From NCBI GenBank assembly GCA_010027605.1, contig RGUW01000007.1, positions 1 through 33,293 of the forward strand: a DNA stretch of 33,293 nt, read 5' to 3'. Numbering within the stretch: the stretch's first letter is position 1; the number at the start of each line of letters is the position of its first letter. The notes beneath the pieces are model-generated. The model was not told where the DNA came from. It saw only the letters and a list, made by a program, of their open reading frames with translations, and did no database searches. Below are positions 26,108 to 32,933 of this stretch, piece after piece. This DNA is from Synechococcaceae bacterium WB9_2_112 (lineage in GTDB: Bacteria > Cyanobacteriota > Cyanobacteriia > PCC-6307 > Cyanobiaceae). Made by a program: the position numbers and the translations under genes.

Positions 26108-26248
26108 TCACGCCGAACCGATCAAAGCCAATGCTGCTGCCCGGCGGCGGCAATGATCTCGACCCACGATCACAGTCCCAGCATGTGCACCCGGCGGGAT
26201 TCACGCAAAAACAGCGCGACGAGGCCACGGCACGGTGCCAGGACAGAC

Positions 26249-26302
26249 CGCTGTGCTTGGGCAGGCCGCTGTGCTTGGGCAGGACCCAGTGCTTGGGCAG
26301 GA
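26249..26302. repeat. 18-bp tandem repeat, about three copies
   Basis: CGCTGTGCTTGGGCAGGC / CGCTGTGCTTGGGCAGGA / CCCAGTGCTTGGGCAGGA. Confidence 0.9.
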
Positions 26303-26387
26303 GTTCACTTCCGACGCTCCGCACTTGGGAGTGGGCGTACTCGCAAACCGGCCCGCAAGCGGGATGATGGGGTCGCAACTGGACACC

Positions 26388-27650
26388 ATGAGCCGGCCGC
26401 CAGTCCACCATTGCGTCAGCCCGGCCAGCCTGTTCGCCAGCCTGCTCGGTCTTTTGGGCTGCCTGGCCCTCACGGGTTGCCGGCAGCTACCGGCGCTGCC
26501 CAGGGTTCTGTTTGTCTCGGTGGGCACCAACGCCGATCAGAAGATCGATGCCAACGGCCTGAGTGAACTCAAGGCCGACATGGCCTTTCTGGCCAACGGG
26601 TTCCGGCGGATCGATCCCAAGACGGTCTTTCAACTCAGCCTCTACTCCGATGACGACCTGCTGCCCGTGATGCAGCGGCGCAACCGGGCCGCGCTGGGAC
26701 CTGATCTGTTTCTGATCAACGGCGACACGTCGAGGCTGCTGCTCAAGGCCGGGCTGGTGCAGGCCTTTCCGACGACGCGCGAGGAGCTGAATCGCTTCAC
26801 CCCGGCGACGGTGCATCGGCTGCGTACCGCACAGGGGCAGCTGGCCGGCCTGCCGGCCTATCTGCAGACCCAACTGGCCTGCTTCAACAGCCGTCGCCTC
26901 CCAACACCGCCCGGAACCCTGAATCAGCTCCTGGCGGTGAGCGCCGCCGGCCATCAGGTCGGCCTCTCACTGAGGGCTGCCGACGTCTTCTGGACGGCTG
27001 GCAGTCAAGGGGCGATTCCAGGACTGGAGCAGGCCATCCGCCGGCAACAGCCCACTGCGGCCCAGCTGAAGACGATTGAGGGCTGGCTGGCCTGGCTGCA
27101 GGACGCGAGCAATCAGCACCGGGTCACGTTCTACGCCGATCAGGCCATGGCCGAGCAGCAGCTTGCGCGAGGACAGCTGGACTGGCTCCCCTGCCGCAGC
27201 ACCAGCCTGGTGCGGTTGCGACGCAAGATGGGTGCAGCCCTCGGCGTCACGCCCCTGCCGCGTGGGGATGGCGGCGAGGCCAGTCCAATGAACCGGCTGC
27301 GGGTCTGGGCGCTGGGGTCCAATTCGGACGCGCTTGCGCGTGAACGGGCGATCCGGTTCGCCCGTTTCAGCACCAACCCCCTGATCCAACGGGAACTGAC
27401 CGTGAGCACCCAGGCGGTGCTGCCGACGAACCGCTTCGTCGAAGTGCCCGAGTTGAGTTCGACCGTGCTGGCGGCGATGGTGCGCGCGTCGGTCCAGGGT
27501 GAGCAGGCCGCACGGTTGATCAGCCTGCTGGAGATCAACGACCCCCGTGTCGCCAGCGCCCAGTACGTGATCACCGAGCTGGTGTTCGGTCAGCTCACGC
27601 CCAAGGCCGCCACCCGGCTGCTGATCAACGACCTGATCAACAAACCATGA
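26388..27650 (+). CDS. Extracellular solute-binding lipoprotein (family 1-like, cluster B/D)
   Basis: Lipobox LALTGC; periplasmic binding-protein layout (GPDLFLINGDTSRLLLKAGLVQAFP; LRTAQGQLAGLPAYLQTQLACFNSRRL; LLAVSAAGHQVGLSL...). ATG at 26388 placed just before the signal peptide. Confidence 0.75.
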   Translation: MSRPPVHHCVSPASLFASLLGLLGCLALTGCRQLPALPRVLFVSVGTNADQKIDANGLSELKADMAFLANGFRRIDPKTVFQLSLYSDDDLLPVMQRRNRAALGPDLFLINGDTSRLLLKAGLVQAFPTTREELNRFTPATVHRLRTAQGQLAGLPAYLQTQLACFNSRRLPTPPGTLNQLLAVSAAGHQVGLSLRAADVFWTAGSQGAIPGLEQAIRRQQPTAAQLKTIEGWLAWLQDASNQHRVTFYADQAMAEQQLARGQLDWLPCRSTSLVRLRRKMGAALGVTPLPRGDGGEASPMNRLRVWALGSNSDALARERAIRFARFSTNPLIQRELTVSTQAVLPTNRFVEVPELSSTVLAAMVRASVQGEQAARLISLLEINDPRVASAQYVITELVFGQLTPKAATRLLINDLINKP

Positions 27651-28906
27651 TCCAGTTGCTGCTTGAGATCCTCGGCTGGCTGGGCTATCTGGAGCGGCCC
27701 CTGGTGCTGTTGCAGCTGGTTCTGGCCATCGGGCCGATGCTGCTGCTGCGCTGGGCGCGGCGGCAGCATCGGCGACCCTTCGGCATCCCCGAAGGCCTGC
27801 TGACACCAGCCGCCCTGGCGCTGCTGGCGCTGTGCTGCCTGCTGCTGGCCGCACTGCGCCTGCCCTATGGCCTGACCAGCCTGTTGGGCGGGCTGTGGCT
27901 GGGCTGGTATGGCCTGAAGCTGCTGCACCCCGTGCTGCTGCTTGGAATCCCCGCCGATCAGGTGCATCGGCTGGAATCCCGGTTGCTGCGGCCGATGTTT
28001 CTGGTGATCGCAGCCCTGGCGCTGATGGCCCGCGTCGACAGCCTGCACGACCTGAGCCTGATTCCGGTGGGGGATGTGCTCGATGTCACGCTCAACATCG
28101 GCGATCTGTTCAACGCGATCCTGGCGCTCTACCTGGTGCTGGTGGCCTGCGGCCCACCGGCTGCAGGCCTGGCCTGGCTGATGCATCAGGCTCTGGGCAT
28201 CAGTGAAGGCAGCCGCAAGGCGATCGAGCTGATCCTGCGCTACCTGGTGGTGGGCATCGGACTGGTGGCCGTCGGAATTCACCTGGGGCTCAATCCCACC
28301 GCCCTGATCGCCGTGGCCGGCGGTCTCTCGGTGGGCCTGGGTTTCGGCATCCGGGAGGTCTTCTCCAACTTCATCAGCGGCCTCTGGCTGCTGTTTGAAG
28401 GCTCGGTGCGCCCCGGTGAGGTGCTGATGATCGACGGCGAACCCTGTGAAGTGCGACGACTGGGGCTGCGGGCCACCCTGCTGTGGCGCGACCGGGACAA
28501 CGCCGAACTGCTGATCCCGAACCAGACCTTCTTCACCCAGTCGACGACGACCTACACCGCGAGCGACCGGCTGCGCCGCAGCCAGGTGACCGTGGGGGCC
28601 GCCTATCACCATGACCCCGAGACCGTGCTCGCCCTGCTCGAAGCCACAGCGCTGCAGGTGCCGCGGGTGCTGCATGAGCCCGCACCCAAGGCCTTGCTGA
28701 TCAGCTATGGCGACTCGGCGATCCAGTACGCCCTGCGGTTCTGGATCACCAATCCGATGAACAACATCGGCATCTGCAGCGAGGTGAACCAGGCCATCTG
28801 GCGGGCCTTCGGCCAGCAGGGCATCGAGATCCCCTTTCCCCAGCAGGTTCAGTACTCGATGGTCTGGCCGCCTGAGCAACACCAGACCAACACCGGCACG
28901 CCCTAA
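27647..28906 (+). CDS. MscS-family mechanosensitive channel
   Basis: GLNPTALIAVAGGLSVGLGFGIREVFSNFISGLWLLFEGSVRPGEVLMIDG...LIPNQTFFTQSTTTYT; ATGA overlap with upstream gene. Confidence 0.93.
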   Translation: MIQLLLEILGWLGYLERPLVLLQLVLAIGPMLLLRWARRQHRRPFGIPEGLLTPAALALLALCCLLLAALRLPYGLTSLLGGLWLGWYGLKLLHPVLLLGIPADQVHRLESRLLRPMFLVIAALALMARVDSLHDLSLIPVGDVLDVTLNIGDLFNAILALYLVLVACGPPAAGLAWLMHQALGISEGSRKAIELILRYLVVGIGLVAVGIHLGLNPTALIAVAGGLSVGLGFGIREVFSNFISGLWLLFEGSVRPGEVLMIDGEPCEVRRLGLRATLLWRDRDNAELLIPNQTFFTQSTTTYTASDRLRRSQVTVGAAYHHDPETVLALLEATALQVPRVLHEPAPKALLISYGDSAIQYALRFWITNPMNNIGICSEVNQAIWRAFGQQGIEIPFPQQVQYSMVWPPEQHQTNTGTP

Positions 28907-29709: not shown

Positions 29710-31680
29710 TCAGGCTTGCTCGATCAGCCTGTGCTCCCAGCCACCGTGACCGTCGAGACAAAGCTCACGGCCATGGAAGGCCCGCAGGCTGGGGCGATGG
29801 CCCACGCTGATCAGGGTGAAACCCTGCGCGATCAGCAGCCGGTAAAGGCGGCGCTCACTGGCCAGATCCGTGGCACTGCTGGCCTCATCCAGCATCACCA
29901 GCTGAGGATGCTGCAGCAGCACACGCACGATCGCCAGCCGCTGCTGCTCACCACCAGACAGCACCCGGGCCCAGTCGTCTTCAGCATCAAGACTGGGATA
30001 ACGCTCGGCCAGGTCCGCCAGACCGACCTGCAGCAGGAACTGACGCAACAACGGATCAGCCGCCGCTGAGCGGTGACCGGGAAACGTCAGCTGTTGGCGC
30101 AGGGTGCCCAGTGCCATGAAGGGTTGCTGGGGCAGCAGCATCCAGCCGCGGCCGGGCGGCAGGGACACACGGCCCTGCACGGGGTCCATCAGCCCGGCCA
30201 GCACCCGCAGCAGCGTGGTCTTGCCGCAACCGCTGGGGCCGCTGATCAGCAGCCGCTCACCTGGCTCGAGGCTGAGCTGGAGCCGGTGGATCAGCACCCC
30301 CCGACCCTGTGGATGGCCCACGGTCAGATCCTGGATCCTGACCAGAGCCGACGATGCCGTCTCCATGCCATGTGGGGTCCTGCCCCGTGCCGCGGATTGC
30401 GCGGGAGTGCAGGCGTTCTGCAACGTGCTGATGCGGTGCAGGCTGGCGAACAGGCCCGCGAACACATCGGCGCGGTCAATCAGAAATGACAGCGCGATCT
30501 GCACCTGCCCAAAGGCGATGCTTCCCACCGTGAGCTCACCCAGGCCCAGATGGCCGCCGAAATAGGCCGAGGCCAGGATCACGTAGGGCACGAACTGCAT
30601 CACAAAGCCATAGAGCGAACTGCTCTGGCTGACCAGTTCGCGCCAGCGGATCACCCGTTCGAGGTTGCGCAGCAACGGCTGAAAGCGCTGCAGCAGTCCC
30701 AGGGCCACCGCCCGCTCGCCGCGCAGCATCGCCACCGCCTCGGCGTGGCTGCGCAGATGCATCAACGCATAGCGGTAATTGGCCTCCAGGCCCTGCTGGC
30801 GCACGCTCAGACCCGCGAGCTGACGCACCAACGTCGCGATCGCCACATTGCCGATCAACGTCGACACAACCAGCGCCACCACCAACCAGCCGCTGATGCC
30901 CACCAGCACCAACACATAAGCGGCCAGCGACAACAAGGTGGCGCAGAAGCCGAACAACAGCTCGGTGGAGCTGAACACCACCCGGTTGACATCGTCGGCG
31001 ATGCGCTGATCGGGGTTGTCGATCTGACCGTTGCCTGGGTTCAAGGCCTGACGCTCGAGACGCTCGTAGGCGTGATCCTGCAGATAGCGCCGTTGCAGCG
31101 CCGTGGTGGCCGCCGCACGCCACACGAGCGCCAGACACTGCTGGCCATAACCGTTGAGGTACTGCAGGGGCAGGGTCAGCAGATAAATCGCTCCCAGGCC
31201 AAGGGCCGAGGCCCAGAAGCGTGGTGCACTGCGGGCATTCAGCGCTTCCATGACGGCCCCGTTGCCCTGGGTGAACGCCACATCCACCGCAGTGCCCACC
31301 ACCAGGAGGATCAGCAGCGCCAGCAAGGCCCACCAACGCCAGTGCTGCGCCGGCGGCCGTCGCGCAGGCAGCAGGGCCACCCCCAGCACGCCGGCTGCTG
31401 TGCAGAGCCCCAGCCCTGCCCAGGAAAGACCGGGGAGATGCCAGAGACTGAGGGCGGGCCGCAGGTACGGAAAAACCAGCGTCAGGCGCCCATCGCCGAG
31501 CAACACCCTCAGCAGATTGGCCGCCGCAGCGATCATCAGTGCAGAAGCCGCCAGGGCAGCAAGAACCGCACTCAACACGAGTGCGGCGCTTCGCAGTGAA
31601 GCCAGGTCAGCAAGCCAGAAGGCCCTGAAAAGCTGCTGCCATTCCTTGAGAAAAGCCCAGAAACCCGGGCGGCTTGTCAT
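29710..31680 (-). CDS. ABC transporter, fused permease/ATPase, SbmA/BacA-YddA type (COG4178-like)
   Basis: QIDNPDQRIADDVNRVVFSSTELLFG in the permease; Walker A SGPSGCGKTTLLRVLAGL; LSGGEQQRLAIVRVLLQHPQLVMLDEASSATD. Confidence 0.88.
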   Translation of the reverse strand: MTSRPGFWAFLKEWQQLFRAFWLADLASLRSAALVLSAVLAALAASALMIAAAANLLRVLLGDGRLTLVFPYLRPALSLWHLPGLSWAGLGLCTAAGVLGVALLPARRPPAQHWRWWALLALLILLVVGTAVDVAFTQGNGAVMEALNARSAPRFWASALGLGAIYLLTLPLQYLNGYGQQCLALVWRAAATTALQRRYLQDHAYERLERQALNPGNGQIDNPDQRIADDVNRVVFSSTELLFGFCATLLSLAAYVLVLVGISGWLVVALVVSTLIGNVAIATLVRQLAGLSVRQQGLEANYRYALMHLRSHAEAVAMLRGERAVALGLLQRFQPLLRNLERVIRWRELVSQSSSLYGFVMQFVPYVILASAYFGGHLGLGELTVGSIAFGQVQIALSFLIDRADVFAGLFASLHRISTLQNACTPAQSAARGRTPHGMETASSALVRIQDLTVGHPQGRGVLIHRLQLSLEPGERLLISGPSGCGKTTLLRVLAGLMDPVQGRVSLPPGRGWMLLPQQPFMALGTLRQQLTFPGHRSAAADPLLRQFLLQVGLADLAERYPSLDAEDDWARVLSGGEQQRLAIVRVLLQHPQLVMLDEASSATDLASERRLYRLLIAQGFTLISVGHRPSLRAFHGRELCLDGHGGWEHRLIEQA

Positions 31681-32933
31681 AACAACCAGAACACGATTGA
31701 GCCCACCACGAGAAACACAACGGCAGCCACCTGAAAACGAAGGTCAATCTGATTGATTGTGTCAATCAGCTGCAGCTCCTCATCCTCTGGCGCCATGGAC
31801 AACTTGTTGGAACCCCACATGAATTGCAGGAATGAGCAGAGGGTAACGACATAACCCAGCCCATAGATCTCATCGAGATAGGTCAGATAGGAGAGCTCAG
31901 GCAACGTTGATCGGTAGGCCTGCTGCAGAAACACCAGCGTCAGCAGCACGGTTGTTGGAATCGCAATGCGCACTTCCCACAGATTGGAGGCCAGCGAAGG
32001 AGACAGCACAACGATCAGCAATGTGACCATCAAGGGCAGAAAAGCCATCCAGATGCCCGTCCAGGTGGACTTGAAATAATCGACATCAAAGATGATCTGA
32101 CTGTAGTTGAAATCGGTCGGGTCTTCACGCTCAGCGCCGGCCTGACTCTTGTGATCTCGCAAGCCAAAAGAGGTTGGATAATGATGCCTGAACTCGGCCA
32201 TTCTCCAACCCTCCATGACATAACCATCAAGACCGATGTGCGAACCAACCCCTGAATCATTGAGGTCAGGGACAAGACGGACATTCTCGAACCGGAAAAT
32301 ATCGGAAGGATCGTTCAGCTCAACCTCAACGGGCAAACCAAGATTTGAAAAAGGATATTTTCTCAGGTCAAGATTATCAATGTAAAAGTTCTGATCATAC
32401 ATGAACTGCTGGTAGTAATCACCATTGTCAAGCTGCCTGGGCGCACCAACGGGATCGAGCAAGGAGAACCAGGATTCAACCTGGTTCGGAAAATTCAACA
32501 ATCCCTTATCAGGTGCAAGCCTGTTGTCATCGAGAATGCGCTGAAAATCCTCCTTCCACCGCATCCAGACGAACCCAGTTGACGCAAAGCTTGGCGTCAC
32601 CAGAGATTCGCCATAATTATTATCATTGTAAATCCCGATCCGCACAACCGGCGTCTTGTCATCGAATCTGTATTCCTCGCCTCGCTGAGATTCGCCATCA
32701 AAGACTCCGCCAAAGTGCCTGCGTCCCGATTTCGAGAGATTGCGCACCAGCCGCTCCCCTCCCGACCCCATGCCCCGCAGATCGCCGGAACGGGATTCCT
32801 GTATTAAATAGTCGCTTGATCGGTAGGCGACCGGCTCATAAACGGAAAACAGGTTGACAGCGGCAACAATCAGCGCCCCCAGTACAACCAAGAGCCAGAA
32901 TACTTTTCTGATCGTTTTTGCTTTGTGAAGCAT
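31677..32933 (-). CDS. Pentameric ligand-gated ion channel (pLGIC)-like protein with extra N-terminal TM/signal anchor
   Basis: LDLRKYPFSNLGLPVEVEL (pLGIC 'xDxRxFPFDxQ' site), Pro-containing TM1 AFLPLMVTLLIVVL, M2-M3 RIAIPTTVLLTLVFLQQAYRSTLPELSYLTYLDEIYGLGYVV, TM4 near C-terminus; ATGA overlap with downstream ABC gene. Confidence 0.75.
   Translation of the reverse strand: MLHKAKTIRKVFWLLVVLGALIVAAVNLFSVYEPVAYRSSDYLIQESRSGDLRGMGSGGERLVRNLSKSGRRHFGGVFDGESQRGEEYRFDDKTPVVRIGIYNDNNYGESLVTPSFASTGFVWMRWKEDFQRILDDNRLAPDKGLLNFPNQVESWFSLLDPVGAPRQLDNGDYYQQFMYDQNFYIDNLDLRKYPFSNLGLPVEVELNDPSDIFRFENVRLVPDLNDSGVGSHIGLDGYVMEGWRMAEFRHHYPTSFGLRDHKSQAGAEREDPTDFNYSQIIFDVDYFKSTWTGIWMAFLPLMVTLLIVVLSPSLASNLWEVRIAIPTTVLLTLVFLQQAYRSTLPELSYLTYLDEIYGLGYVVTLCSFLQFMWGSNKLSMAPEDEELQLIDTINQIDLRFQVAAVVFLVVGSIVFWLL

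Follow-up and report, generated by a model that had tools for sequence, protein, structure and literature searches.

A divergent pLGIC without the usual Asp-Arg interface residues in a picocyanobacterial genome, and its lineage-specific ABC transporter neighbour

Identification of the channel

The window analysed here, i.e. the whole 33 293 nt of one contig (C417) of Synechococcaceae bacterium WB9_2_112, encodes a bacterial relative of the human neurotransmitter-gated ion channels. The product of a minus-strand open reading frame with an ATG start (P0001; Table 1) is a pLGIC, as judged from its sequence profile, its predicted fold and the positions of its motifs. We are confident that it is a true but divergent member of a picocyanobacteria-centred subfamily, which would form a homopentamer with a ligand-opened pore and an altered coupling of its domains, and that its juxtaposition with an ABC transporter gene is specific to this lineage.

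When searched as a single sequence against the PDB (phmmer), the protein matched an insect GABA-A subunit over M1-M3 (E = 1.1e-5) and, more weakly, ELIC and GLIC chimeras. A family profile (alignment A1, 32 relatives) matched ELIC in the PDB over both LBD and TMD (positions 80-359; E = 2.3e-20), giving homology along the full length of the two domains, and also matched GLIC across both (about 1e-13). Given the phmmer match to GABA-A and the profile match to ELIC, the resemblance is beyond chance. The channel sequence alone returned nothing above cut-off from Pfam and NCBIfam, the Pfam channel models included, and 14 of the 32 members of the alignment matched the Pfam model Neur_chan_memb (best 1.3e-5). 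Sub-threshold single-sequence Pfam matches to DUF5656 and ASC were taken as chance.

An AlphaFold (AF2) model of the monomer, built with alignment A1 (pLDDT 83.5), comprises a beta-sandwich (residues 96-288) and four helices, M1-M4, with a low-confidence linker of 60 residues following the N-terminal helix. Foldseek matched this model best to sTeLIC (E = 3.5e-19; TM 0.77 on the target; the same fold at 16% identity), and further to GLIC (TM 0.80 on the target), ELIC and GABA-A receptors. The first-pass annotation, made from the letters of the sequence, had proposed a pLGIC-like channel in a picocyanobacterial genome, to be checked by profile search, predicted fold and Foldseek comparison with GLIC and ELIC; all three found the superfamily, and the identity is borne out. 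Homology and predicted fold thus place the protein among the pLGICs, and the absence of two interface residues that are typical but not absolute makes it a variant that is still a member.

Table 1. Positions in the window of the channel gene, its parts and the adjoining ABC transporter gene.
Feature	Position	Strand	Basis
pLGIC gene P0001, 418 aa	31677..32933	-	ORF; profile to ELIC, AF2 model, Foldseek
N-terminal hydrophobic segment, residues 11-29, VFWLLVVLGALIVAAVNLF	32847..32903	-	helix 3-31 in AF2 model
Extracellular (periplasmic) ligand-binding-type beta-sandwich, residues 96-288	32070..32648	-	model strands; ELIC LBD alignment
Pro-loop Y193-P194-F195-S196, without the Asp of F/YPxD	32346..32357	-	alignment; PMC4795631
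Pre-M1 position, K288 replacing the usual Arg, 12 residues before Pro300	32070..32072	-	alignment
M1, residues 290-313, Pro300	31995..32066	-	model, alignment
M2, residues 319-341: E-2', R0', A2', P4', T6', L9', T10', F13', Q15', R19'	31911..31979	-	
M3, residues 352-380	31794..31880	-	model
M4, residues 383-417; M3-M4 loop short	31683..31787	-	model
ATGA overlap: channel stop (TGA) / ABC gene start (ATG)	31677..31680	-	sequence
ABCD/BclA-type half-transporter P0002, permease + ATPase, 656 aa, motifs intact; lineage-specific neighbour	29710..31680	-	

Architecture of the channel protein

The features from which the channel had first been recognized stood up to closer inspection. The three quoted strings (LDLRKYPFSNLGLPVEVEL, RIAIPTTVLLTLVFLQQAYRSTLPELSYLTYLDEIYG and the N-terminal VFWLLVVLGALIVAAVNLF) are all present in the translation, M1 carries its Pro, and the reported likeness of the M2-M3 region to Cys-loop receptors extends without a gap from R0' (R322) to P23' (P345) in the alignment with GlyR and GABA-A. 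No Cys flanks the Pro-loop, as had been noted, so that the protein is not a Cys-loop receptor in the metazoan sense; prokaryotic members normally lack this pair (PMC549065; PMC4795631), and its absence is therefore not in itself notable.

The N-terminal hydrophobic segment of the first-pass annotation was also found; it is very hydrophobic, has a net charge of +4 ahead of it and no AxA site, and reads as an uncleaved signal anchor. Given this hydrophobicity, the preceding positive charge and the mostly missing AxA cleavage site, a fifth, anchoring helix at the channel N-terminus is likely. The subunits would most likely assemble in the plasma membrane as a homopentamer whose ligand-binding sandwich faces the periplasm and whose cytoplasmic side is short.

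Like ELIC (Erwinia/Dickeya) and GLIC (Gloeobacter), the window protein combines an LBD with four TM segments and a Cys-less loop, has no large cytoplasmic domain, and retains the Pro residues of the loop, M1 and the M2-M3 region, at about 16-18% identity (structural alignment). Unlike both, it lacks the loop Asp and the pre-M1 Arg, carries a Pro at M2 4' and possesses an anchor-like N-terminal helix plus a linker of about 60 residues before the LBD.

Loss of the Asp-Arg contact and conservation of the pore

Motif statistics were drawn from 92 aligned non-redundant loci and set against superfamily frequencies of 93% for the Pro-loop Asp, 94% for the pre-M1 Arg and 100% for the beta6-beta7 loop Pro (PMC4795631). 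In the picocyanobacterial family, the loop Asp is present in 10/92 loci (S196 in the window) and the pre-M1 Arg in 9/92, a count that a shift to the preceding alignment column would raise to at most 18/92; Lys occupies this position in another 9/92, including K288 of the window protein. Only two of the 92 loci, both among the most distant members, have the two residues together. The replacement of PFD by PFS, already picked out in the first reading of the sequence, thus turned out to be its most telling observation, given that most of the family has lost the Asp and the Arg. Other motif positions are kept, with the loop Pro (P194), the M1 Pro (P300) and R/K at M2 0' (R322) in 92/92 loci, L9' (L331), the M2-M3 Pro (P345) and the Pro at M2 4' in 91/91, and near-invariant T10', F13' and Q15' across the family alignment.

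ELIC mutants with alanine in place of either the loop Asp or the pre-M1 Arg fail to activate, and in GLIC the Asp mutant is non-activating and the Arg mutant was not expressed (PMC4778918). The absence of both residues from most family members is therefore also compatible with a pLGIC-fold sensor that lost its gating salt bridge and no longer conducts, a reading to which we give little credence: the near-invariance of L9', T10', F13', Q15' and the M2-M3 Pro would be unexpected without conduction or gating, and no fused signalling domain was found. With the salt bridge gone but strong conservation retained at the pore-lining and M2-M3 positions, we prefer an altered coupling interface to a dead channel.

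With such an altered interface, a small periplasmic ligand would open the M2-lined pore, L9' and F13' would form the hydrophobic gate, and the sandwich would be coupled to the pore through contacts that replace the usual salt bridge of Asp and Arg. GLIC has an acidic ring at -2' and is cation-selective; by analogy, the acidic -2' residue found in 83/92 loci suggests that this pore, too, is probably cation-selective. The Asp/Arg contact is central to models of pLGIC gating, and a natural family that lacks it with the pore intact offers a test of which contacts are required.

Distribution of the family

Channel matches were found in 104 of the 399 genomes of the order and in 18 of its 44 genera. 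Named matches come mainly from Cyanobium and Synechococcus isolates and bins, and a few from bins with deltaproteobacterial, alphaproteobacterial or other labels. A single-sequence scan of genome contigs for relatives returned none, and an alignment query did find them. Cyanobacterial pLGICs have been noted since 2004 (PMC549065) and those of Synechococcus and Prochlorococcus also earlier than this study (PMC4795631); a literature search of partial coverage, and thus weak evidence of absence, returned no paper on picocyanobacterial pLGIC function. Some carriers of the family are cultured strains of Cyanobium and Synechococcus, tractable organisms in which to address the long-standing question of what pLGICs do for bacteria.

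In a quick tree with long branches, 48 rows form a clade (SH-aLRT 99) that leaves the window sequence outside. Three more members of the channel family are encoded on other contigs of the window genome. In a distant channel subgroup (L004/L057, L072, L073, L074 and L213) the reading frames continue without a stop far ahead of the channel, and no periplasmic binding protein (PBP) gene is adjacent; the start of L074, the only member examined in this respect, resembles a signal peptide.

A periplasmic binding protein as recurrent neighbour

The recurrent neighbour of the channel family is a type-1 PBP (Peripla_BP_6, 1e-42 to 1e-55), adjacent at 38/92 loci (34 divergent and 4 convergent), all of them inside the 48-row clade (38/48) that excludes the window sequence. 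This adjacency is not chance, since only 2-4 such PBP genes exist per genome. The window genome itself has a PBP-channel pair on contig C6, and the window locus shows no such partner. In three of the loci (L050, L052 and L068), where the PBP-channel pair is convergent, the channel is preceded by a PALP (tryptophan synthase beta-like) gene, which overlaps the channel start in L050 and L052.

An association of channel and PBP-I as a possible ligand sensor, like that seen here, was described for bacterial ART-LGICs by Tasneem et al. (PMC549065), where PBP-I is an N-terminal fusion and PBP-II a stand-alone neighbour; in the picocyanobacterial family it is PBP-I (Peripla_BP_6) that stands alone, usually divergent, and it is absent from the window locus. 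Within the 48-row clade, the PBP encoded by the adjacent gene probably senses or presents the ligand, and the window paralogue, lying outside this clade, has no PBP partner in view. A possible extension, less likely than not, is that the subfamily dispenses with the Asp-Arg salt bridge in gating and uses a different domain interface and the M2 Pro instead, and that in its main clade the channel makes up a two-gene receptor together with a separate periplasmic binding protein as ligand sensor.

Upstream of the window channel, no convincing gene was found in the 360 nt that remain before the contig end (32934-33293), and a search for shared end sequence past 33293 matched no other contig, so that a partner gene further upstream of the channel is possible. 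Promoter and terminator scans at the channel locus gave results at or near chance level.

The ABC transporter gene downstream

The stop codon of the channel gene overlaps the start of the next gene on the same strand (ATGA, 31680-31677), exactly as the first-pass annotation had described. Its SbmA/BacA-type label for the encoded transporter, P0002, holds roughly for the permease fold (Pfam ABC_membrane_2, 4e-42; SbmA_BacA, 1.4e-13) and fails for the class, as SbmA/BacA proteins are secondary transporters without an ATPase and P0002 has an intact ABC_tran domain (Pfam, 2.7e-22). Because it carries its own ATPase, P0002 is an ABCD/BclA/Rv1819c-type half-transporter, with the ABC_membrane_2 permease plus ATPase layout of the BclA/Rv1819c/YddA-type ABCD proteins and a match to the Rv1819c-type structure 6tqe (E = 2.4e-64). 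This class is broadly distributed in cyanobacteria (PMC12003926). The clade of P0002 is small, being found in 8 of the 399 genomes of the order (the window genome and seven others; closest homologues 55-59% identical), and most relatives possess a distinct, commoner homologue (31-38% identical).

The two genes had been proposed to form a channel/sensor plus transporter module. In such a module the channel might, for example, sense a peptide or solute, or set an ion gradient, for the transporter translated from the same message. The same-strand 4-nt overlap fits this idea, as do the natural C-terminus of the channel and N-terminus of the ABC protein at the junction. The gene preceding four of the seven close ABC homologues, moreover, encodes an MgtA-type Mg2+ P-type ATPase (TIGR01524 equivalog where tested), and in at least three of them the two genes share a 4-nt overlap like that in the window, so that the ABC gene may tend to travel with ion transport. 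Against it, the survey of recurrence found the pair in 1 of 92 non-redundant loci, i.e. in the window only: the 91 other family loci and the loci of the seven close ABC homologues all lack it, and such an absence from close homologues is what the first-pass annotation had itself named as refuting its proposal. Beside the nearest channel relatives lie different genes, namely a DevBCA-like exporter cluster (L035/L036) and an ATP-grasp ligase (L037), and ATGA junctions also link unrelated genes at several of the channel and ABC-homologue loci. We therefore consider joint function improbable. The pairing is real and is a lineage-specific juxtaposition, not a general module, and the ABC gene would be co-translated with the channel here as a result of that juxtaposition. 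No mgtA remnant was found beside the window ABC gene, and no pLGIC remnants beside the close ABC homologues, even with filters off. The loci in which an MgtA-type ATPase gene is coupled to the BclA-type ABC clade are L105, L107, L205 and L208.

That the pair might instead be an assembly chimera was weighed in view of the bin, which is fragmented (460 contigs, 73% complete), and of the base composition, the channel gene having a GC content of about 50% and the rest of the window mostly 60-72%. A false join of a 50% GC channel to a 66% GC contig would account for the sharp GC change at the junction, with the contig ending 360 nt upstream of the channel start. It would not be expected to leave two full-length proteins in perfect ATGA overlap, and low channel GC is common in the family even in single-contig genomes (0.47 in L058; 0.54 in L045). 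With the three further family members in the same genome also speaking against it, a chimera is very improbable, and the lineage-specific juxtaposition remains our reading of the locus.

Other gene neighbourhoods

A low-GC cassette containing a channel relative was observed in L063 (2722-8351), L067 (7880-13498), L144, L145, L146, L150 and L116, and in part in L071. It comprises genes for a histidine decarboxylase (NF002748 in L063; 390 bits, cut-off 305), a membrane protein of about 613 aa, an MFS transporter and the channel, possibly bringing together amine synthesis, transport and receptor. The histidine decarboxylase of these relatives and the recurring PBP partner are leads to the ligand.

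Elsewhere in the window, two plus-strand genes meet in an ATGA overlap: a lipoprotein-like gene (26235-27650) and, after it, a gene for an MscS-type channel (27647-28906). The lipoprotein-like product had no Pfam match and resembles maltose-binding proteins (profile match to 4hs7, 4e-14; model pLDDT 87.5, Foldseek match to GacH, 5.5e-20). Its homologue precedes the MscS gene in 15/15 loci of the taxonomic family, the window included, and binding protein and mechanosensitive channel (26235-28906) are thus a conserved pair.
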